Below are positions 924 through 20,316 of a stretch of 20,316 nucleotides of DNA, piece by piece (position 1 is the stretch's first letter; each line of letters starts with the position of its first letter). The notes beneath the pieces were generated by a model that was not told the origin of the DNA, searched no databases, and saw only the letters and a list, made by a program, of their open reading frames with translations. Source of the DNA: a virus; the IMG/VR virus record IMGVR_UViG_3300025450_000156, positions 1 to 20,316 of that record. One strand, written 5' to 3'. A program made the translations under genes and the position numbers.

Positions 924-931
924 TATTTATC
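924..931 (-). promoter_or_regulatory. T4-type late promoter box before gp25
   Basis: GATAAATA on the minus strand, followed by TT as before gp48. It overlaps the stop codon of the upstream 837-residue gene and lies 16 nt before the gp25 ATG. An embedded late promoter would raise gp25 output independently of the upstream gene. Confidence 0.65.
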
Positions 932-3440
932 CAGCAGTTGTTTGTTTCAAAGCTGTGTACGTTTGTTGTGCTTGAATAATTCTTGGATCGCCCTGTGGAT
1001 AATTATTTTGAGCATATTGTAAATTATTATAAGCATTTGTAACTTGACTGTTTAACGCAATTAAGTTGTTGCTTGATGTTTGTGCGGCCGTTTGTGCTGT
1101 AGCTATAGAAGCCGCTGTCTTTAAGTTTGGTGTTGTGAAAGTTCCTCCCAATAAAGTAGGAGGTGTGGCAACACCGTTTAAAATTCTTAATACAGCAGCA
1201 TTGACTGCTGTTCTAACAATGGTATTAGTTGCTACTGTTGGAGTAATTATACCACCAGTTGCTGTGCTACCGCCGTTTCCTCCACTTACTGAACTGCTAC
1301 CTGCAAACATTTGAGCAGCACCCGAATTTGTTAAACTATTAACTAGCGATTGTAATGGGCTGCTAGTAATTTGATCTGGAGCAACCGCCACACTTGCTAT
1401 TTCACTGTTAAGCTGTGATTGCGCTATCTCCTCGTCTGTTGCCTGTGTGTTATCATTCCAAGCATCAGGATTAAATGCGTCAGCACCACTCGGCGTTGTG
1501 TCTACTTGATATTGAGCGTTTGGACTTAATTCTATTTCTTGTAATCCATTGTTGCCTGAAGATGCGTTTTGTGCTTGTACCGCAATAGATGTTGAGCCTG
1601 GTAAATTGCTATTTGTAGTATCACTTAAATCTACTGTGCTTGCTGTTGAACCGATTCCACCTGGTAATATTAATGCTCCTGCGGCAATTTCGGCAGCGTT
1701 TTGTCCACTAGCTATATTTTGAGCAAGAGGGGTTAATTCGCCTTCTCCTACTAAAAGGGTTGTACTGCTAGCAGCAAAAGTATTGTGGCACAAATCATCA
1801 GTTAAATTACCTGTACTTTGTTGTATTGGTATTGCGTTTGCTGTATTACTATAATCAGGTTTTAATGCGTTTGTAATTGATGTTGTAACAGAGTTAAGTG
1901 CGCCTTGTATGCTAGTACCAACTGCTTTACCTGCTGATTGTCCTAAGGCAGACACAACTGCATTTCCTGCCTGTCTTAGTGTACTACTTGCTATGCTACT
2001 TGCTATACTTGAAGCTGAACTTGGGCTTTTTGCTACACTTGCTACTAAAGTTGTTTTAGCTACGTTTACTAGTACTGCTGTTAAATTTACTGGGACACCA
2101 ACTTGTAATTTAGGCATACTTGATGCTATAGCAGTAAAGGCTGTTGCTGCTGTGCCTCTTTGTGAACTGTTTAATTGTGCGTAACTTGGAACTGTACTTA
2201 ATCCACCCAATGCTGTTTTTAAACCACTTAAGTTGGGGCCACCGCCGCCAAATAGTCCGCCAATAATATTACCAACACCTAAGGCTTGTAATCCTGCTCC
2301 TAGTGCTGCTCCAGCAACACTGCTGACAGCACCGCTAAAGGCATTACCTAGTGCGCCACCTACTTGACTACCAAAGGCACTTGTTAAACTACCACTTACA
2401 CTCTGAGTTAAACTAGTTAATGCGCCACCAGTAAGATTATTAATACCTGCCGTAGCTATGCCTCCTAATCCGCCACCTATTGCCCCAGTGACGCCTGATA
2501 TTCCTGCGCCAGCTGCGTTTTGTGCCACATTAAATCCTAAACTGCTTAATCCACTTTGAACTAAACTATTAACACCGCTACTTACAACATTTGTTAATGC
2601 GCCTGTGACTGCTTTACCTACGACACCACCTACGTTTTTTCCTAATACGCTGGTAAATGCATTATTAATACTGCCGCTGACGCTACCTACTAACATTCCT
2701 CCAACACCTTTGCTCAGTGATGTTCCAATGTTTACTACGGCATTATTAACCGATGTTCCCAAACTAGCAGGACTTGATGGATCTCCTATATAAACATTAG
2801 CATAGAAACTTGGACTTGATGGACCAAAACCGCCTGCTGCTATGCCTGTAACTGTTGGGACAGTTGATTGTGCTACTGGCTGAATACTGTTTAAACCTTT
2901 TACTAAAGTTATAGTTTGTGGTACACCAACTAAAGACCCAGCTAATACAGCACCTGCTATTTGACTACTATCTTCTTTACCTGTAATTAATCCTGAGTTT
3001 GTTAATTGTGTTTGTGATTGTTGTAAATTGGTTACAGCTACACTAGCTTGTGCGTTTTGATTTAATATTAGACTGTCAACATCAGTAACTCCTAACTTAC
3101 CTGTGAAAAACTGTGTTGGCATAGCTGTGCGTATATCGGCGCCGCCTGCTATTTGTGAGGCAACTAAATTACTACTACCTGGTTTGAGAATTCCCGCGCT
3201 TTCTAATTGGTAAGGAGTAAGAGCATATGCTCCTACAACAAGTTGATTGATTCCTTGGTCGTTTGGGCTAATAGCATACCCTACTGTGCTAGCGGCGACA
3301 GTATTTGTATTGTATGCTGTAAAAGCTGCGATAGTCCCCAACAATGCTGTTGTTGTAGACTTGTCAATGCTTTGACTGACAGCTTGAACTTCAGGCTGAC
3401 TATTAATAATACCTGTGCCAAACTGAACCGTAGAACTCAT
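927..3440 (-). CDS. Gly/Ala/Ser-rich virion protein, function unknown
   Basis: I do not recognise this 837-residue protein with certainty. Residues 1-130 look globular and contain ALTPYQLESAGILKPGS (residues 73-89), a segment I associate with structural proteins of marine T4-like phages. Residues about 236-401 are a long Gly/Ala/Ser/Val-rich tract with repeated GGxxG and GAxxSxV patterns and almost no charge, which could be membrane-active or a flexible channel-like segment. Residues about 410-780 are Ser/Thr/Asn-rich, with a single Cys in DDLCHNTF. The last 55 residues (QTSSNNLIALNSQVTNAYNN onward) look helical and may form a coiled coil. The ATG directly follows the gp5 stop (TAAATG), with a strong Shine-Dalgarno GGAGG 10 nt upstream inside the end of gp5, so it is translationally linked to the spike gene. 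A baseplate or spike-associated role is inferred from position alone. Confidence 0.6.
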   Translation of the reverse strand: MSSTVQFGTGIINSQPEVQAVSQSIDKSTTTALLGTIAAFTAYNTNTVAASTVGYAISPNDQGINQLVVGAYALTPYQLESAGILKPGSSNLVASQIAGGADIRTAMPTQFFTGKLGVTDVDSLILNQNAQASVAVTNLQQSQTQLTNSGLITGKEDSSQIAGAVLAGSLVGVPQTITLVKGLNSIQPVAQSTVPTVTGIAAGGFGPSSPSFYANVYIGDPSSPASLGTSVNNAVVNIGTSLSKGVGGMLVGSVSGSINNAFTSVLGKNVGGVVGKAVTGALTNVVSSGVNSLVQSGLSSLGFNVAQNAAGAGISGVTGAIGGGLGGIATAGINNLTGGALTSLTQSVSGSLTSAFGSQVGGALGNAFSGAVSSVAGAALGAGLQALGVGNIIGGLFGGGGPNLSGLKTALGGLSTVPSYAQLNSSQRGTAATAFTAIASSMPKLQVGVPVNLTAVLVNVAKTTLVASVAKSPSSASSIASSIASSTLRQAGNAVVSALGQSAGKAVGTSIQGALNSVTTSITNALKPDYSNTANAIPIQQSTGNLTDDLCHNTFAASSTTLLVGEGELTPLAQNIASGQNAAEIAAGALILPGGIGSTASTVDLSDTTNSNLPGSTSIAVQAQNASSGNNGLQEIELSPNAQYQVDTTPSGADAFNPDAWNDNTQATDEEIAQSQLNSEIASVAVAPDQITSSPLQSLVNSLTNSGAAQMFAGSSSVSGGNGGSTATGGIITPTVATNTIVRTAVNAAVLRILNGVATPPTLLGGTFTTPNLKTAASIATAQTAAQTSSNNLIALNSQVTNAYNNLQYAQNNYPQGDPRIIQAQQTYTALKQTTAG

Positions 3441-4946
3441 TTAGGGGCCACCTCCTGCTATACTATTTACGTTAGACAATGCTGGGTTAGCGTTGCTAGG
3501 GAAGTTTGCTGAGGCATCAAGATCAGATTTTACAGCTACACCCTGATTAGCATTTAGCCATGGCATATGTGCTGGACATCTGCTTGTAATTGACAATAAA
3601 CTATTTGGTGCTGCCAAAAAGCCTTTATCGTTGTCAAAAAGTGTATCTGTTTGGGCAGCAAATGGAATTGAACTTTGTCCTTGTGGCTGAGTGCCAATTT
3701 GCCCTGTGTTTAATAAAACTTTTGTTCCTGTCACATAAGCCGCTGCTGCTCCAGCAATACCTATTTCTGCGCCAGAACCTAAACTACATGACCCTCCTGA
3801 TAATACTGTAAATGTTTTATCAGCACTTATATTATAATCTGCGCCTACTCTATGTTTTGCGCCTGCTTCAGTATTAATGTTTAAAGCATTACTATGTATG
3901 TTTAATGTTTTAGTAGCGTGTATGTTAATATTATTATCTGCATGTAGGTTTAAATCACCCTGTGTTCTAACATTAAAACTATTAGTACTATAAATGTCTA
4001 CTGTGCCTTCTTTGCCTAATTCAATATAACTTTGTCCATTACTATGTAAAATTGTTAGTACTTGACCATCGTCACTCATAGTAATTTGATGACCCAAGGC
4101 AGTTCGTATTCTTATTAACTGATCACGTCCTGCGATATCGCCATCATCCATTACTATACTATGACCGCCTTTGCGGCTAATTACATCTAATGAACTGGCT
4201 GGTGCCGTGTTAGCGTCTTGAATTGCTGTGGCATCATCATATCCACCTTGATAAATTGGTCTACCTGGAGTGCTTACACCCCAGCCTACAGTACTTGGTG
4301 TTTCACGATTTGCGCTACTGCTAATTGGGCCTCGTATTGGATCTCTAATAGTACCCTGTTGAAACATTATTGCTGCTTGATAGCTATGAATAGGTTTAGG
4401 AGCACTTAAGTAAGTTGCTCCATCACTTATTCCTGAATTATCACCATTGATATTAGTTACTGGCAATCTTGGTGCGCCGCCTAAACTATTTGCTTCGCCA
4501 TCATTGTTAGGCACAACACTATCAACAGCACCTATAGCAGGTACCATTTGCAGTGCGCTTTCGTCTGGCACACAGCCTATATAATAACCTAAGCTAGGAT
4601 CTCCATTAACAAATACACAAATAACATTTGTGCCAACGTCAGGTGGACTATTCCACATACCATAACTTATTGGATTGCTACCGAATCCACCATAGCCTGT
4701 ATTATTACTATTACCCGATAATTGTCCATAAAACGGACTAGCAAAATTTACTTGCATCCAGCTAGTAGGATCTTCAGGTGGTTTATTGTTAATACCTGCT
4801 ATATAAACCATTAGTTTGCCTGAACGTGTAGCATCAATATTGCTTTTAACAACGCCTAATACAGGCCAACTTATACTAGCTGCTCCGCCTGCCTCGGGTT
4901 TATTTGCTTTACTAACGCCTTTTTGTTTAATATTATCTTGTGCCAT
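3441..4946 (-). CDS. 5: Baseplate central spike gp5, without lysozyme domain
   Basis: This 501-residue protein combines an N-terminal OB-fold (about residues 30-127: VLGVVKSNIDATRSGKLMVY, then PPDVGTNVICVFVNGDPSLG and YYIGCVPD) with a C-terminal repetitive beta-helix (about 255-412: VISRKGGHSIVMDDGD, RIRTALGHQITMSDDGQVL, then repeating NIHATKTLNIHSNALNI). gp5 forms the trimeric needle below the hub that pierces the outer membrane. T4 gp5 carries a lysozyme domain between these parts; here residues 130-255 are a Pro/Asn/Ser-rich linker with no lysozyme-like sequence. The beta-helix type is that of VgrG/gp5 spikes. The start is supported by AAAGAGAA about 8 nt upstream. The gene lies between the hub-like gene and the 837-residue gene. 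Confidence 0.88.
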   Translation of the reverse strand: MAQDNIKQKGVSKANKPEAGGAASISWPVLGVVKSNIDATRSGKLMVYIAGINNKPPEDPTSWMQVNFASPFYGQLSGNSNNTGYGGFGSNPISYGMWNSPPDVGTNVICVFVNGDPSLGYYIGCVPDESALQMVPAIGAVDSVVPNNDGEANSLGGAPRLPVTNINGDNSGISDGATYLSAPKPIHSYQAAIMFQQGTIRDPIRGPISSSANRETPSTVGWGVSTPGRPIYQGGYDDATAIQDANTAPASSLDVISRKGGHSIVMDDGDIAGRDQLIRIRTALGHQITMSDDGQVLTILHSNGQSYIELGKEGTVDIYSTNSFNVRTQGDLNLHADNNINIHATKTLNIHSNALNINTEAGAKHRVGADYNISADKTFTVLSGGSCSLGSGAEIGIAGAAAAYVTGTKVLLNTGQIGTQPQGQSSIPFAAQTDTLFDNDKGFLAAPNSLLSITSRCPAHMPWLNANQGVAVKSDLDASANFPSNANPALSNVNSIAGGGP

Positions 4947-11224: not shown

Positions 11225-12978
11225 TTATACTAAAAAATATTACATTAAGAAATTTCCTTTCAATAGGAAATGTTACACAAGCAGTAAACTTTGATACTAA
11301 AGAACTAACACTTATTCTAGGTGAAAACTTAGACTTAGGTGGTGATGGCGCAAGAAACGGTACAGGTAAGACAACTCTTATTCAAGGGTTGAGTTATGTG
11401 TTGTTTGGAACTCCAATCAATAACATTCGTAAAGATAATTTAATCAATCGTACCAATGGTAAGGGTATGATGGTGACACTTGAGTTTAGTTGTAATGGTA
11501 TTGAATATAAGATTGAACGTGGTCGTAAACCAAACATATTAAAATTTTATATTAACGATACAGTACAAAGCAATGATGCTCAGGGTGAGAATAGAGAAAC
11601 ACAAGAGCAAATTGAAAAAGCAATTGGTATGACACCTGATATGTTTAAGCACATTGTTGCGCTTAATACATATAGTGAACCATTTCTAGCAATGAGTGCT
11701 AATGATCAGCGTAATGTTATTGAACAATTATTGGGAATTACATTATTAAGTGAAAAAGCCGATTTGCTTAAAAACTTAATTAAAGATGTAAAAGATAGTA
11801 TTCAACAAGAAGAATTTAGAATACAAGGTGTTGAAGAAGCCAACAAACGTGTTAAAGAACAAATCGAAAGTACCAAACGCAGAAGTGCGTTATGGCAAAA
11901 GAAACATGCTGAAGATTTGGCTAAACTTGCTTTGGCTTATGATGATTTAACAAAAATTGATATTGATGTTGAACTTCAAGCACATAAAGATTTAACTCTT
12001 TACAATGAAAAACAAAAGAAAATTAATGATTTAAATAAATTAATTACTCGTTTGGAAAGTGACCAAACAAAAGAAAACAAAACTGTTAAAAAACTTTCTA
12101 AAGAAATTGAAGATTTAAAAAATCATACATGTTATGCTTGTGGACAAGAGTTCCATGATGAAAATCATAATACTGTTTTGTCCGATAAAGAAAAAGCATT
12201 AGAAGAGGCACTAGCACAATGTGAATCTATTGTGTCTCAAATAACTGAACATCAGTCTGAATTAAACAATTTGGGTGAGTTAGGTATTATACCAAAAACA
12301 CATTATGACACTGAAGCTGAGGCTGTAATGCATAGCAGTCAGATCAGTAATATATTAAAACAAATTGATAGTAAAAGTGAAGAAACTGATCCATATATTG
12401 AACAAATCAGTGAAATGGAAAGTCAAGCACTTCAAGTTGTAAGTTTTGACAAGATAAATGAATATACAAAATTAATGGATCATCAAAAGTTCTTGTTAGA
12501 CTTATTAGTAAGTAAAGATAGCTTTGTTCGTAAAAAGATCATTGATCAAAACTTAAGTTATTTAAACGCAAGACTCACACACTATCTTGATAGAATTGGA
12601 TTACCACATCAAGTAGTATTTCAAAATGATTTAAGTGTTGAAATTACAGAATTGGGCCGTGAACTTGACTTTGATAATTTAAGTCGCGGTGAACGCAACA
12701 GATTAATTCTAGGTTTAAGTTTTGCTTTCCGTGATGTATGGGAAAATTTATACTTCCCAATCAATACATTGTTTATTGACGAACTTATTGACAGTGGATT
12801 AGACACACTTGGTGTTGAAAACAGCATGGCTATCTTAAAAGAAATGAGTCGTAGACGCAGTAAGAGTATTTGGTTAGTCAGTCACAGAGAAGAACTAGCA
12901 GGTCGTGTGCCTAGTGTATTAAAGGTTGTTAAAGAAAATGGATTCACAACCTATAATAGTAGTCATGAGGTACTATGA
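11221..12978 (+). CDS. 46: Recombination endonuclease subunit gp46 (SbcC/Rad50-like)
   Basis: This 585-residue SMC-type ATPase is the partner of gp47 in DNA end resection. Walker A is GARNGTGKTT at residues 43-52. A helical coiled-coil arm (about 165-300) leads to a zinc hook C304-x-x-C307 (CYACGQ), and a second arm returns to the C-terminal lobe. That lobe has the ABC signature LSRGER (487-492), Walker B LFIDE (517-521, with D520 and E521) and the H-loop SH at 554-555. It is close to the T4 gp46 length (560 residues), and all catalytic elements are intact. The start overlaps the upstream 73-residue gene (ATGA), and its TGA overlaps the start of the radical SAM gene in the same way. Confidence 0.95.
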   Translation: MIILKNITLRNFLSIGNVTQAVNFDTKELTLILGENLDLGGDGARNGTGKTTLIQGLSYVLFGTPINNIRKDNLINRTNGKGMMVTLEFSCNGIEYKIERGRKPNILKFYINDTVQSNDAQGENRETQEQIEKAIGMTPDMFKHIVALNTYSEPFLAMSANDQRNVIEQLLGITLLSEKADLLKNLIKDVKDSIQQEEFRIQGVEEANKRVKEQIESTKRRSALWQKKHAEDLAKLALAYDDLTKIDIDVELQAHKDLTLYNEKQKKINDLNKLITRLESDQTKENKTVKKLSKEIEDLKNHTCYACGQEFHDENHNTVLSDKEKALEEALAQCESIVSQITEHQSELNNLGELGIIPKTHYDTEAEAVMHSSQISNILKQIDSKSEETDPYIEQISEMESQALQVVSFDKINEYTKLMDHQKFLLDLLVSKDSFVRKKIIDQNLSYLNARLTHYLDRIGLPHQVVFQNDLSVEITELGRELDFDNLSRGERNRLILGLSFAFRDVWENLYFPINTLFIDELIDSGLDTLGVENSMAILKEMSRRRSKSIWLVSHREELAGRVPSVLKVVKENGFTTYNSSHEVL

Positions 12979-13988
12979 GTCTAGCGCTTTGGCATTGGCA
13001 TATTGAGATAAGCAGTAAATGTACATTGCGTTGTCCAAGATGCGCACGAAGTGAAGTGCCTGAAAGTTTAGTCAACACAGAATTAGGTCTTGATTTTTTT
13101 ATAAAAAACTTTGATGAAAGTTTTATTAAAAATCATGTAGAAAAACTTACATTCTGTGGTGACGATGGTGACCCCATATACGCACATGATTTTTTAAGTG
13201 TGTTAAAGTATTTTAAAAATATTAAGCCGAACATCAGCATTGTTATAGTGACTAATGGCGGATATAAATCAAATGATTTTTGGAATGAATGTAGCAACAT
13301 ATTAAATGAATATGATACAATTCATTTTAGTTTAGATGGCTGGGATAATGCCAGTAATAATTTATATAGAGTTAATAGTAACTTTGATAGTTCAATCAAT
13401 GGTGCTAAAATATTAATTGAAAGTAATAAATGTTATGTAGTTTGGGACGCAATTGGATTTAAATTTAATGAAAACAAACTACGTCACATGAAACAACTAG
13501 CAAAGTCATATGGTTTTGATATGTTTCAATTAACTAAAAGTACAAAATTTGGTGCCATATATGAACACTATGGCAAAAATGATACATTACAACCAAGTAA
13601 AAAATTAATGAGTAGTAGTCATAGATTTGAAAGAGAATACACATATTTCACTGAAAGACGACCTAATGAAAGTTTTATGACTACTAACTTGTCACACTAT
13701 GATAGTGTAGAAAATATAGGAAATATTAAACCTTTATGTCATATTGGCAATAAAGGATTGTTTATTAACAGCAAGGGAGAGTTTTTCCCCTGTTGCTGGG
13801 TAGCTAATAGATATGGTCACAATAATAAATTTGTTGACTTAAGCAAAAGCTACAACTTACACAACGTAACTTTACAAAGTGTATTAGATTTAGATTTTTA
13901 TAAAAAAAATTTTGTTAATGATAGTTTTGAATGTAATATTAAATGTAACAAAGATATTGTTACAAAAAATTATGGTACAGAGTGGTAG
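12975..13988 (+). CDS. Radical SAM protein with SPASM-like C-terminus
   Basis: This 337-residue protein carries the radical SAM iron-sulfur motif C16-x3-C20-x2-C23 (KCTLRCPRCAR). FCGDDGDP (about residues 60-67) fills the place of the SAM-binding 'GGEP' motif, and a TIM-barrel-like pattern follows (IVIVTNGG, IHFSLDGWDN). Near the end, C255 (PLCHIGNKG), C273-C274 (FFPCCWVAN), C320 and C324 (ECNIKC) resemble a SPASM/Twitch auxiliary cluster domain with 'GLFINSKGEFFPCC'. Known SPASM enzymes mostly modify peptides or proteins, and I see no obvious precursor peptide next to it, so the substrate is unknown. Its ATG overlaps the gp46 stop, so it belongs to the recombination operon. Base composition looks like its neighbours. 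No radical SAM gene is present here in T4 itself. Confidence 0.82.
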   Translation: MSLALWHWHIEISSKCTLRCPRCARSEVPESLVNTELGLDFFIKNFDESFIKNHVEKLTFCGDDGDPIYAHDFLSVLKYFKNIKPNISIVIVTNGGYKSNDFWNECSNILNEYDTIHFSLDGWDNASNNLYRVNSNFDSSINGAKILIESNKCYVVWDAIGFKFNENKLRHMKQLAKSYGFDMFQLTKSTKFGAIYEHYGKNDTLQPSKKLMSSSHRFEREYTYFTERRPNESFMTTNLSHYDSVENIGNIKPLCHIGNKGLFINSKGEFFPCCWVANRYGHNNKFVDLSKSYNLHNVTLQSVLDLDFYKKNFVNDSFECNIKCNKDIVTKNYGTEW

Positions 13989-16136: not shown

Positions 16137-19100
16137 ATGGCTGGCGAAAATCTTAATGAATCAACAGAAAAATTAACTGAAACGCAAAATGAAGCGTCTG
16201 CAGCTGCCAAAACTTTAGCCGAAGAACTTCTCAAACTTAGTAAGGTTAGTTCAAAAAGTACTAACCAACTTAAAGCTGAACAATTAACAGCAGAAAGCAA
16301 ATTAAAACTAGAACAAGATGTAGCCAAAGTAACTGCTCAGTTAAGCAACGGGCTTAATCAGGTTGTTAACGGCGTTAATACATTAGTAGGCTCGTTAAAA
16401 TCTTTTGGTAATGCGTTAGATAGTGCCGGATATGATTTAAGTAAATTTGGCGGCGCAATACAACAATATATTACTGGTGTCTATCAGCTTATACCGCAAA
16501 CTGAAGCTATAGGTAGAATCACAAATAATTTAGCAGGAGCAGCTGGTGAATTATATTCTAGTTACCTAAAACAAATTGACAACACTTACAAAGCTTATGG
16601 ATCATTAAGCAAATTTGGTGAAGGCGCAGAAATAACACTTGGTCAGTTCAAGTTAATGGCAAACGCAGCAGGTTACAATGCTGCGAATATGGATAAATTT
16701 ACAAAAGCTATCACAGACATTGGTCCTGGATTGCTTAGTTTTGGTGGTACTGTTCGAACAGGCGTAGCAGCCTTTAGTGATTTAAATTCATTAATTGGTG
16801 ATCATGGCGATGCCGTTCAAAAAGACATAGATCATTATAGAAAATTAGGTCTTGAACAAGATGAATATCTTGCTATGCAGGGTCAGGCACTTAATTATTT
16901 CTTAAAATCTGGTCAAACAATTTACAGTATTGTAGGTGAACAACAAGATAGAACAACAGCACTTAGAAAAGCATCTAACGAATACATTGATCAGTTATAT
17001 GAATTAGCAAATATAACTGGTAAAAATGTCAGTGATTTACAAAAAAGTCGTGAACAAGTATTAGCAAATACACAATATCAATTATATCTTACTCAGCAAA
17101 ATGCACAAGTTGAGACACTTAGAAGAAGTGGTCGTGATCAAGAAGCTGATGCTTTACAAAGAAGATTAGAAAGTATAACAAATACCTTAACAGTAGCAAA
17201 AGATTACTTAAGTCCAGAAAGATTTGCCGCACTTCAAAGAGGATTTGCCACACAAGGTCAATATTATGGCAACAACCCTGAGGCTGTAGCAGGTCTATTA
17301 GGATTGGTACCTAATCTTACAGAACTTATTAGAAACAGTGACCCACAAAAAGTATTAGCTACGTTAGGTGAAGCAAGTCAACGTAGAGCAGAAGGACCTG
17401 TAGGTGCTGGCGGAACCTTCTTAGAAGATAAAACATTGACAGCACTTGGTATAGACGCTGGATCCTTAGAACTTGGTCGTCAAATTAAAAACGCAGGCGG
17501 CATAGAAAATTTCTTAGAACAAAGAAAACCTAAACCAGGAACAGAAACAGAACAAGAAAAAACAGATATTGCTATAGATTCTCTTAACGCATATAAAGAC
17601 CAAATGCGTGATTTAGGTGTTTACTTTGATGATAACAAATTGGCAATGGCCAACCAATTAATACATTTAGCGAACATATCACAAACAATGGGTGGATTAC
17701 TATATGTTGCTGAATTATCACTTGGTGTATTAACTGCGATTAGAAGCTTAGAAGCAGTAAATGCTTTGACTGGAGGAAAAGGACTATCTGGTTTATTTGG
17801 AAAAGGCGCAGAAGGTTTACTAGGAGGAGCAAAAGGAGCATTAGGAAAAGCAGGAATGGCTGCTGGAGCTTTAGCAGTTGGTTATGGCTTATATGAGGGC
17901 TTTAAGGACGATGACGATGATGATAATACTGGGCAATCAACGGGTAATATACCCGGCATGCCATCGATGGGAATGGGACAAAATTTAGGATCAGACGTCA
18001 CAGGAACTGCTTTAAACATGATCGGTTTAAAACCAATCGGTGGATCTATGCCTGGAGGTGTTGTCCCTAACATTCCTTTACCTAGATTGAATCAACAACA
18101 AAGACAAGTTAATGAACAAAAAACAAAATTAGAAGAAAATACAAAGCAAAATGAAAAACAACTAAAAGAAATCAAAGATACAAGTGATGAATCTTGGGGT
18201 GTTTGGTTTCATAAACATAAGGAATTTTTAGAAGATGCCGCAATTTCAGGAAGTTTAGCAATTGCAGCAGGCGTTGTAGAAGGCGCAAGTTTTGGTCTTG
18301 CTACCCCTGTAGCGGCAGCACTGGGAACTGCTTCGCTTTATTATGGAGGTCAAGCATTAGCTGAAGGCGCTAAAGATTTGGGAAAAGATATAAAACAAAA
18401 TCGCCGTGCTGCTGATCAAAGAGATCAAAAAGCCAATGCGGCATCATCTAACACACCAGAAGCAATAATTGCTCAAAAAATTAAAAATCCAAAATATAAC
18501 CAAACTGTTTTCTATAAAGGAAAAGCCTACATATATAAACAAGGCAGATGGTGGCCAGCTGATGCTGCGCAAGCAACTATAGCAGCAGGAAGTAAGGATC
18601 TCAGTACTTTACAGAAAAATCAATATACTAGTTTAGAATTAAGCGATACAGCAAGTGTAGGTGAATCAGCAGCAAGAGGCACATCAAACTTGCCAAGTAT
18701 TACAACTGCTACATTGCCAAATGCTTCAGTAACAACAGATACATCAACTGAACGAAGATCACAAGTTGGATTAGACTCAGCTAATATGCTAACCTCACTT
18801 GTTCAAATACAAAAAAATACTGAAACTACAGCACATGAATTAGCAGACATCTATGACATTGTAAATGATTGGTACATCAAAACTGCGGTTGATACAGCCA
18901 TGCCAACTGGCGGTGCTGGCGGTGGCGTAAGTGGCGGCGGAAAGAATAAAGATTTAGGTGATGTTGCTAAGATTGGCGGAAAAACACGATCAGGCGGTGG
19001 AATTGCTTGGAGAGCAAATAATCCAGGCGATATTACTGCCGGCGCAACTGCAGAAAAACTCGGTGCGTTGCCTAATCAATCACTAAGAGTACAAGATCCT

Positions 19101-19709
19101 TCTGGTAAAATTATAAAAATTGCTGTATTTCCCGATGTGGAAACAGGTAGAAAAGCACATGAAGCTTTGCTTAAAGAAAAGTATGGAAATCTTAACATTG
19201 CTGATGCTGTATCATATTACACTGAAGGGGTAACAGGAGGAAGCCACCCTGAGTTGGCAAATATAATAAGAGATATACAAAAGGAAACTGGAGCAAAAAT
19301 CACAACTAAATTAGGAGATTTGAATAAAGATCAATTTAGTAAGTTTGCTCAAGTTCAAGAAAAATGGGAAGGTGGTCAAACCCCAGGTAAAGTACTGGGT
19401 ATGGGTGGCATTACTGATGGCATAAGCATTGCTGGCGAAGCAGGCCCAGAAGCAGTTGTTCCATTGCCAAACGGTCGTAGCATACCAGTTGAACTTACGG
19501 GTGATAAGACAGAAAAATTAACAAAACAAGATATGGAAAATATCATACAACCAGTGTTTAATAACAGCGAATTGACTAGAGCAATGCAAGAATTAGCAAA
19601 TCAAAACAAAACACTTAATAATACCTTTTCAGCAAAATTAGACACTGTGATAGCAAGATTAGAATCAAGCAATTCTTTACAAGACAAATTGTTAAGACAT
19701 TCTATATAA
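16137..19709 (+). CDS. Tail tape measure protein with embedded NNPG-type domain
   Basis: This 1190-residue protein is the likely tape measure (gp29 role), which sets tail length and passes through the tail tube on ejection. The N-terminal 80 residues are charged and helical (coiled-coil-like). Long helical stretches follow to about residue 510. Several hydrophobic segments occur around residues 515-590 and 690-755, including GMAAGALAVGYGLYEGF, which is followed by six Asp (591-596). Residues about 955-1080 start with GGIAWRANNPGDI (W958, N961-N962-P963-G964), the opening of a domain often found in phage virion proteins thought to act on peptidoglycan. The C-terminus has GEAGPEAVVPL (1100-1110), a hallmark of tape measure proteins. 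It is about twice the length of T4 gp29 (590), implying a longer tail or added domains. It is divergent from gp26 and precedes the portal gene. Confidence 0.82.
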   Translation: MAGENLNESTEKLTETQNEASAAAKTLAEELLKLSKVSSKSTNQLKAEQLTAESKLKLEQDVAKVTAQLSNGLNQVVNGVNTLVGSLKSFGNALDSAGYDLSKFGGAIQQYITGVYQLIPQTEAIGRITNNLAGAAGELYSSYLKQIDNTYKAYGSLSKFGEGAEITLGQFKLMANAAGYNAANMDKFTKAITDIGPGLLSFGGTVRTGVAAFSDLNSLIGDHGDAVQKDIDHYRKLGLEQDEYLAMQGQALNYFLKSGQTIYSIVGEQQDRTTALRKASNEYIDQLYELANITGKNVSDLQKSREQVLANTQYQLYLTQQNAQVETLRRSGRDQEADALQRRLESITNTLTVAKDYLSPERFAALQRGFATQGQYYGNNPEAVAGLLGLVPNLTELIRNSDPQKVLATLGEASQRRAEGPVGAGGTFLEDKTLTALGIDAGSLELGRQIKNAGGIENFLEQRKPKPGTETEQEKTDIAIDSLNAYKDQMRDLGVYFDDNKLAMANQLIHLANISQTMGGLLYVAELSLGVLTAIRSLEAVNALTGGKGLSGLFGKGAEGLLGGAKGALGKAGMAAGALAVGYGLYEGFKDDDDDDNTGQSTGNIPGMPSMGMGQNLGSDVTGTALNMIGLKPIGGSMPGGVVPNIPLPRLNQQQRQVNEQKTKLEENTKQNEKQLKEIKDTSDESWGVWFHKHKEFLEDAAISGSLAIAAGVVEGASFGLATPVAAALGTASLYYGGQALAEGAKDLGKDIKQNRRAADQRDQKANAASSNTPEAIIAQKIKNPKYNQTVFYKGKAYIYKQGRWWPADAAQATIAAGSKDLSTLQKNQYTSLELSDTASVGESAARGTSNLPSITTATLPNASVTTDTSTERRSQVGLDSANMLTSLVQIQKNTETTAHELADIYDIVNDWYIKTAVDTAMPTGGAGGGVSGGGKNKDLGDVAKIGGKTRSGGGIAWRANNPGDITAGATAEKLGALPNQSLRVQDPSGKIIKIAVFPDVETGRKAHEALLKEKYGNLNIADAVSYYTEGVTGGSHPELANIIRDIQKETGAKITTKLGDLNKDQFSKFAQVQEKWEGGQTPGKVLGMGGITDGISIAGEAGPEAVVPLPNGRSIPVELTGDKTEKLTKQDMENIIQPVFNNSELTRAMQELANQNKTLNNTFSAKLDTVIARLESSNSLQDKLLRHSI

Positions 19710-19728: not shown

Positions 19729-20316
19729 ATGGCACATAAACGCAAATTTTTAAACAAAGCAGGTACCAGTAGCCCAATTTCGGGTATTAATAGCAATACT
19801 GGCGCATGGAATAGTAGTCCAGGACAAAATGGTTCAAGCACTGGCGGTTGGAATAACACTGACTTTGGTTATAAAAATTATATGTCACGACTTCCTGAAG
19901 TCTATACAGGACATCCTAATCGTATTGAACGTTATAACCAATATGAAATGATGGACGTTGACGCAGAAATTAACGCATGTTTAGATATTCTTGCTGAATT
20001 TAGTACACAGAAAAATCAACATAACAACACTCCATTTAACATTAATTTTAAAGATGATCCAACAAATCATGAAGTTGAATTGTTAAAACAACAGTTACAA
20101 CAATGGAGTAAACTTAATGAATTTGATGTGCGTATCTTTAAGATTTTCCGTAACGTTGTTAAATACGGAGATCAGGTCTTTGTTCGTGACCCAGAAAACT
20201 TTAAACTATATTGGGTTGATATGGTTAAAGTTATTAAAGTTATTGTAAACGAAAGTGAAGGTAAACTACCTGAACAATACGTAATTAAAGATATAAACAT
20301 CAACCTACAGAATTTA
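19729..20316 (+). CDS. 20: Portal vertex protein gp20, N-terminal part (runs off window)
   Basis: The frame opens at ATG 19729 and stays open for 196 codons to the window end. The product contains YMSRLPEVYTGHPNRIERYN, then QYEMMDVDAEINACLDILAE, FSTQ, and FKIFRNVVKYGDQVFVRDPE. This is the highly conserved N-terminal part of T4 gp20, the dodecameric portal through which DNA is packaged and ejected. The first 45 residues are Gly/Ser/Asn-rich and probably disordered. An in-frame stop just upstream (19723-19725) fixes this ATG as the earliest start. No clear Shine-Dalgarno sequence precedes it. It starts 19 nt after the tape measure stop, with its own late box between them. Confidence 0.92.
   Translation, partial: MAHKRKFLNKAGTSSPISGINSNTGAWNSSPGQNGSSTGGWNNTDFGYKNYMSRLPEVYTGHPNRIERYNQYEMMDVDAEINACLDILAEFSTQKNQHNNTPFNINFKDDPTNHEVELLKQQLQQWSKLNEFDVRIFKIFRNVVKYGDQVFVRDPENFKLYWVDMVKVIKVIVNESEGKLPEQYVIKDININLQNL

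Follow-up and report, generated by a model that had tools for sequence, protein, structure and literature searches.

In the 20,316-base virus record IMGVR_UViG_3300025450_000156, hereafter called the window, the open reading frame (ORF) that we assign to the tape measure protein (TMP) carries, just ahead of its conserved C-terminal tail, a domain related to the catalytic domain of the Enc34 endolysin. We are nearly certain of this relation, both in fold and in family. It is highly probable that the domain acts on the cell wall in some way, and we consider it likely that the virion carries it on the tape measure as a wall hydrolase, in a slot whose content is exchangeable. The evidence computed here consists of the homology, the predicted fold, a conserved glutamate, the position within the TMP, the wall hydrolases in the TMP ends of relatives, and a gp5-like baseplate hub protein in which no lysozyme was detected.

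In the mechanism that we propose, residues ~947-1092 would form a divergent Enc34-type endolysin catalytic domain, with the circularly permuted fold of a lysozyme-type glycosidase, that travels in the virion. The distal end of the tape measure would be freed from the tail, presumably at DNA ejection, and the Enc34-type domain would then cleave the glycan strands of the host peptidoglycan locally, with Glu1078 as the putative general acid and Tyr1028 as an aromatic residue that positions the substrate. The domain would in this way do the job of the T4 gp5 lysozyme.

Detection and extent of the Enc34-type domain

An earlier note on this DNA had placed an NNPG-type domain in the TMP at 19002-19377, before the GEAGPEAVVP motif. 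That span lies within the domain defined here, and a profile made from 59 domains, with the window left out, recovers the window TMP (99.8 bits; E 6.7e-30 at a Z of 1000). With the same window-free profile, no other six-frame segment of at least 30 residues in the window matched at E<=10, and neither did any of 1000 shuffled copies of the domain; the match is well beyond chance. It spans TMP residues ~947-1086 (950-1089 in the ORF numbered three residues higher), and we placed the end of the domain at ~1092, where the conserved tail starts. The domain is complete and ends just ahead of GEAGPEAVVP, which begins at residue 1100. Part of the invariance of the NNPG motif among the aligned domains stems from the search itself, whose pattern included the motif.

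Taken alone, the window domain has no Pfam match at E<=1 and no PHROG match, so that the family is visible only through its relatives; a PDB sequence search with the single domain returned one row, at chance level. By tblastn, the domain matched 3 of 50,697 phage records. The best relative is a 697-residue "endolysin" of Acinetobacter phage Ab1-TPeters (27%, 5e-4), whose gene sits between tail tube and baseplate genes, and the others are a LysM protein whose gene follows vgrG (0.1) and a protein of a podovirus (0.2). The PHROG named endolysin is matched by all three; in addition, one matches a PHROG of tape measure proteins and one a PHROG of tail injection transglycosylases, and there are further matches to families of unknown function. 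Six aligned domains were used to scan IMG/VR, which gave at least 600 pattern matches, and the best 80 of 108 confirmed domains were retained. Each of the 80 aligns with most of the profile, the glutamate region included; 59 of them are non-redundant at 90% and, together with the window, make up the 60-row profile used below.

Domains of this type also occur in other settings. L101:3545-4393 and L150:1376-2275 encode small NNPG proteins that have PG_binding_1 at the N-terminus and resemble stand-alone endolysins, and L004:2435-4036, from a Salmonella houtenae record, encodes an NNPG-type domain in a LysM protein after vgrG. A domain of a type VI secretion system effector, Tae5-Nt, is described as matching the Enc34 structure 7q47 as well (PMC13340143).

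Predicted fold and kinship

When the 60-domain profile was compared with PDB sequences, the best matches were Gp29 of 9vvp (4.4e-18) and the Enc34 endolysin, 7q47 (3.4e-12), and the next row had an E-value of 0.039. The earlier note had proposed a structure prediction, and the fold obtained is that of the Enc34 endolysin catalytic domain, for which muralytic activity is published (PMC8943055). The AlphaFold2 model of the domain has a mean predicted local distance difference test score (pLDDT) of 89.2 and a predicted template modelling score (pTM) of 0.80. Foldseek puts the two 7q47 chains in the top two places (E 4.6e-3 and 6.6e-3; probability 1.00), and VIA-align also places 7q47 at the top (Z 9.6, 3.3 A, 116 aligned residues), followed by a row with Z 8.5 over 68 residues. 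The lower rows of the fold search, largely ABC-transporter subunits, align over ~70 helical residues (a few over more than 100) and were rejected as generic helix packing.

The structure of the Enc34 domain is described by Cernooka et al. 2022 (PMC8943055) as a permuted GH73/GH23 core in which the helix of Glu131 comes after the others and not before them, with a large loop between the first two helices in the place of the GH73 beta-lobe. The same source proposes a signature of Trp79, Tyr95 and Glu131 and reports lysis by the domain of E. coli, P. aeruginosa and H. alvei cells with a permeabilised outer membrane. On structural grounds it argues that the Enc34 type has the specificity of a glucosaminidase; for the related enzyme M4Lys it cites glucosaminidase as well as endopeptidase activity (PMC8943055). 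The model of the window domain has helices at residues 58-73, 78-90, 97-108 and 121-134, with Glu1078 (model residue 135) closing the fourth of them; judged by helix order and fold match, the model agrees with a permuted helical lysozyme-type core with the glutamate helix in last place. The predicted beta-hairpin of the model (Table 1) is partly formed by an insertion, residues 979-989, that is rare in the alignment (gap columns).

Membership in GH73/GH23 itself was rejected, as the domain has no Pfam match at E<=1 and its glutamate lies at the C-terminal end and not first. Distant hints of the GH73 type were found in 3 of the 60 domains, which touch Glucosaminidase (best E 0.098), and among weak Foldseek rows that include two FlgJ-type hydrolases (2zyc, E 0.34; 5dn4, E 0.65); these hydrolases may be distant kin of the window domain.

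Wall enzymes in the tape measure ends of relatives

The TMP diverges fast, and its length varies strongly among relatives. Since a TMP-based scan of viral contigs returned the same virus only, and tblastn of the TMP against phages gave a single 42-residue match, to a Rhizobium phage tape measure, the portal gene was chosen as an anchor. The ORF upstream of the portal gene was taken at the best 80 portal loci from a scan with at least 600 matches, and the frequencies given below hold for this sample. The upstream ORF was shorter than 380 residues at 14 of the 80 loci, L031 and L032 are copies of L030, and the ORF of L014 is not TMP-like; with these removed, the Pfam set comprised 63 relatives and the window, still containing L073 and its copy L074. 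In a second tally, made with enzyme seeds, L014 was kept and L074 dropped, which gives 64 distinct ORFs including the window. The ORF upstream of the portal gene in L014 (397-2142) matches neither the tail nor the window TMP, and by eye it looks like an insertion of the homing endonuclease type.

Within at most the last 700 residues of the 64 members of the Pfam set, 22 families were found at E<=0.01, ten of which are wall enzymes. Counted by member, these are VanY (10), amidase_2 (5), GH19 (5), phage lysozyme (4), SLT (4), M15_4 (3), Transglycosylas (3), glucosaminidase (2), M15_3 (2) and M15_2 (1), and the commonest of the twelve other families is glycine zipper, in 5 of the 64 members. The seed tally, made by phmmer with the window domain and 12 enzyme seeds (11 with a Pfam match at E<=0.01, and the SLT of L083 at E 0.025), assigned 39 of the 64 distinct ORFs, 35 to another wall enzyme and 4 to NNPG. 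The domains were VanY (13), SLT, GH19 and amidase (5 each), NNPG and GH24 (4 each), M15_4 (3) and GH73 (2), with two ORFs carrying two. The TMPs of L009 and L019 have two wall enzymes in tandem (GH19 or SLT, then VanY).

What stays constant behind these varied domains is the conserved tail, whose profile matches 53 of the 66 relatives' ORFs of at least 380 residues, a count that is partly by construction, as the profile was made from 47 such tails including that of the window. For 24 of the 38 measurable domains, the domain end lies within 12 residues of the tail. This applies to all five amidases, all four NNPG and all four GH24 domains, all three M15_4 domains and 8 of 12 VanY domains, and to none of the five SLT and five GH19 domains, which lie 38-295 residues ahead of it; L067 and L079 (GH73) and L070 (VanY) have no tail match and are left out of these distances.

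TMP ends as variable as these could also harbour a mere evolutionary passenger with no wall function; protein length differs strongly among the relatives, and 13 of the 66 ORFs have no tail match, seven of which (L048-L053 and L082) show no recognised domain there. We regard this explanation as extremely improbable: wall enzymes account for 10 of the 22 Pfam families, including the four most frequent apart from the tie with glycine zipper, a share that random passengers would hardly give, and Glu1078 is invariant.

The same tail ends 14 of the 59 other NNPG proteins, directly after the domain in eight of them; three of these 14 (L088, L091 and L111) are contigs of L033, L017 and L012 from the portal search. 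A domain that works inside the infected cell or at lysis, as an endolysin function borrowed by the TMP and not used for entry, would be in line with the endolysin role of Enc34 itself (PMC8943055) and with the small size (at most 310 residues) of 9 of the 59 non-redundant relatives, two of which have PG_binding_1. This is very unlikely for the window, where the domain sits inside a 1190-residue TMP, right before the conserved TMP tail, and the comparable muralytic domains of T5 pb2 and TM4 are discussed, in the sources cited here, as acting in infection (PMC10038345, PMC1796659).

A baseplate hub without a detected lysozyme

The gp5-like baseplate hub protein of the window has no lysozyme match in Pfam, and the top PHROG match, to "baseplate hub subunit and tail lysozyme", covers only profile positions 18-394 of 887. 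The statement of the earlier note that gp5 lacks its lysozyme therefore holds as far as it was tested. A search of 28 records found gp5 relatives in 22, of which one is the same virus; nine of the other 21 were scanned (seven of them as pieces of ~1000 residues), and none showed a lysozyme domain at E<=0.05. In eight of the nine records with a scanned gp5, the TMP has a wall enzyme, an NNPG domain or an M15-like motif (L012, L017, L036, L042, L057, L061, L085 and, with the motif only, L028), and none was assigned in L053.

This pattern of presence in one protein and absence in the other suggests that the TMP would take over the task of the tail lysozyme. A peptidoglycan-acting TMP domain with a role in ejection, as the earlier note had suggested, is supported by the Enc34 fold, by the wall hydrolases in the TMP ends of relatives and by a gp5 in which no lysozyme was detected. 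We give about even chances to the broader proposal that, across a large T4-like lineage of uncultivated viruses, the tail lysozyme was transferred from gp5 to the C-terminus of the TMP, where the region before the conserved tail was repeatedly refilled with unrelated peptidoglycan enzymes. These would be glycosidases, transglycosylases, amidases, DD-carboxypeptidase-type peptidases and the permuted Enc34 type, perhaps matched to the wall chemistry of the host.

The end of the gp5 gene has a feature of its own. At the junction of ORFs 3441-4946 and 927-3440 (3435-3446, minus strand), only a TAA and then an in-frame ATG separate the two ORFs, and AGGAGG lies upstream. Of the 21 gp5 matches in relatives, 20 have a frame that runs on to 711-1425 residues, and in 16 of the 21 relatives sequence matching the window ORF 927-3440 continues in frame after gp5. 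In this virus, the gene appears to have been split cleanly at the junction.

Active-site positions and the case against an active enzyme

The earlier note could point to no certain catalytic acid in the domain. Glu1078, whose column lay outside the search pattern, can now be named as a candidate and is probably the missing acid; the caution of the note is still justified, given that the Tyr95 position is Ile1043. In the alignment, Glu1078 falls on the glutamate at 7q47 chain position 132, which is the number used in the paper plus one, and the same offset applies to the tryptophan (80) and the tyrosine (96).

Several results weigh against an active wall hydrolase in an exchangeable slot. Ile1043 stands in for the tyrosine of the proposed three-residue signature, Asp965 replaces the Asn found in 59 of the 60 domains, and the branch of the window is among the longest in the tree of the 60 domains (1.58), as in a relaxed, non-catalytic copy. 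The Foldseek E-value for 7q47 is only 4.6e-3, and VIA-align cautions that helical folds with Z below ~13 may share a common arrangement only, for which reason the sequence profile is firmer evidence than the fold search. The Glu131 of Enc34 was itself assigned by superposition and not by a mutant, as described in PMC8943055. As for the relatives, a C-terminal wall-enzyme match in Pfam at E<=0.01 was found in just 10 of the 20 scanned singly, some of these matches being under Pfam's own cut-off, and L072 and L083 matched weakly (0.025-0.028). Moreover, 25 of the 64 ORFs received no enzyme assignment in the seed tally; nine of these contain a strict M15-like S..H..G.A.D pattern, which was excluded from the tally.

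The loss of the Tyr95 counterpart, the Asp965 change and the long branch would all fit a domain in which catalysis has been lost and which serves the TMP as a non-enzymatic peptidoglycan-binding or tail-tip structural module. We hold this to be unlikely, as the candidate catalytic glutamate and the aromatic residue at the Trp79 position are retained and recognised enzymes fill the C-terminal TMP region in many relatives. The hydrolase remains the reading that we prefer, and catalytic activity of this particular copy, judged from its sequence, is rather likely. It is not assured, because the Tyr95 position is occupied by Ile1043, and for the same reason we describe the window domain as a divergent homologue and not as a proven active member of the family.

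The tree of the 60 domains does not settle the placement of the window, which has a long branch and weak support. The TMP-tail label requires at least 5 changes over the starred branches, with 36 rows unlabelled, and 78 of 500 shuffles gave values as low; because of these two limits, no conclusion is drawn on the number of acquisitions.

Comparison with known systems

The closest known system is the catalytic domain of the Enc34 endolysin ORF39 (PHA02564, 7q47), with which the window domain shares profile homology, predicted fold, a glutamate that ends the last core helix, and an aromatic residue at the Trp79 position. The Enc34 endolysin is a small protein with a C-terminal transmembrane domain, whereas the window domain lies within a TMP, has Ile in place of Tyr95, and is predicted to form a beta-hairpin in the loop that precedes the long helices, unlike the Enc34 domain, which is described as all-helical (PMC8943055). 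Gp29 of 9vvp (1295 residues, domain at 4-114), for which we found no paper, is the best PDB sequence match and likewise has its NNPG domain in a large protein, but at the N-terminus.

Tape measure proteins with wall enzymes are already known. In pb2, the tape measure protein of T5, a muralytic motif lies toward the C-terminus and is followed by the C-terminal part alone, of which 35 C-terminal residues were modelled in the distal hub cup (PMC10038345); pb2 differs in that T5 is a siphovirus and the motif is that of a metallopeptidase and not a glycosidase fold. Motif 3 of the TM4 tape measure is also a peptidoglycan hydrolase motif, which helps the infection of stationary cells and is described as not essential (PMC1796659), but it belongs to another motif family, and TM4 is a mycobacterial siphovirus. 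The T4 gp5 tail lysozyme has the presumed task in common, in a contractile tail; in T4 the lysozyme domain is in gp5 (PMC10038345), whereas in the window none was detected in gp5 and a domain of a different fold is found in the TMP. The lysin P5 of PM2 and related Vinavirales lysins are reported to match 7q47 by AlphaFold2 and to keep the W/Y/E residues (PMC9502842), but these are tailless viruses and the proteins are not TMPs.

The surprise is limited, as TMP hydrolases and the Enc34 fold are each known individually. TMP enzymes in general have reportedly been catalogued in a survey of enterococcal phage tail lysins. Our searches of open-access papers, mostly at the level of titles, recognised no account of exchangeable wall enzymes in T4-like TMPs and found nothing on NNPGN together with phage; according to them, what is new is a T4-like TMP that bears an Enc34-type domain where its relatives have other wall enzymes. 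The finding adds the Enc34-type fold to the wall enzymes known in tape measure proteins and suggests, in testable form, how a T4-like virus that lacks the gp5 lysozyme may get across the wall. With wall enzymes exchanged within the same protein, the relatives form a natural series in which one can ask how tail enzymes are matched to hosts.

Features of the locus

Table 1. Features of the window discussed in the text, with positions in the 20,316-base record.
Feature	Position	Strand	Details and basis
Gp5-like baseplate hub protein	3441..4946	-	501 residues; no detected lysozyme domain; Pfam, PHROG
Tape measure protein ORF	16137..19709	+	1190 residues; open reading frame
Enc34-type (NNPG) domain, residues ~947-1092	18975..19412	+	Profile matches; AlphaFold2 model
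Signature WRANNPGDI, residues 958-966	19008..19034	+	Sequence and alignment columns
Predicted beta-hairpin, residues ~982-996, between the first short helices and the first long helix	19080..19124	+	AlphaFold2 strands E39-43 and E49-53
Tyr1028, counterpart of Enc34 Trp79	19218..19220	+	Aromatic in 60/60: Tyr 41, Trp 18, Phe 1
Ile1043, at the Enc34 Tyr95 position	19263..19265	+	Column: Tyr 58/60, His 1, Ile 1 (window only)
Glu1078, candidate catalytic acid, counterpart of Enc34 Glu131	19368..19370	+	Invariant, 60/60
Conserved TMP tail (GEAGPEAVVP and C-terminal stretch), fixed element after varied enzyme domains	19413..19706	+	Tail profile
Portal protein	19729..20316	+	Runs off the window end; full copy in L001 used as anchor for related TMPs

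The TMP ORF lies immediately upstream of the portal gene, whose product we take to be gp20-like. No tape measure model of Pfam or PHROG matches this ORF; its assignment is made from its position, its length and its matches to the ORFs upstream of the portal gene in relatives, many of which match both the N-terminal part and the tail of the window TMP. An identical TMP is encoded in the 70.5-kb record IMGVR 3300025778_000016, which has one mismatch in 9180 aligned bases with the window and probably represents the same virus population; its TMP is for this reason not counted as independent evolutionary evidence. Elsewhere in the window, a 337-residue ORF (12975-13988, plus strand) starts with CTLRCPRC, a cysteine pattern that, by eye, is presumably like that of radical SAM enzymes.

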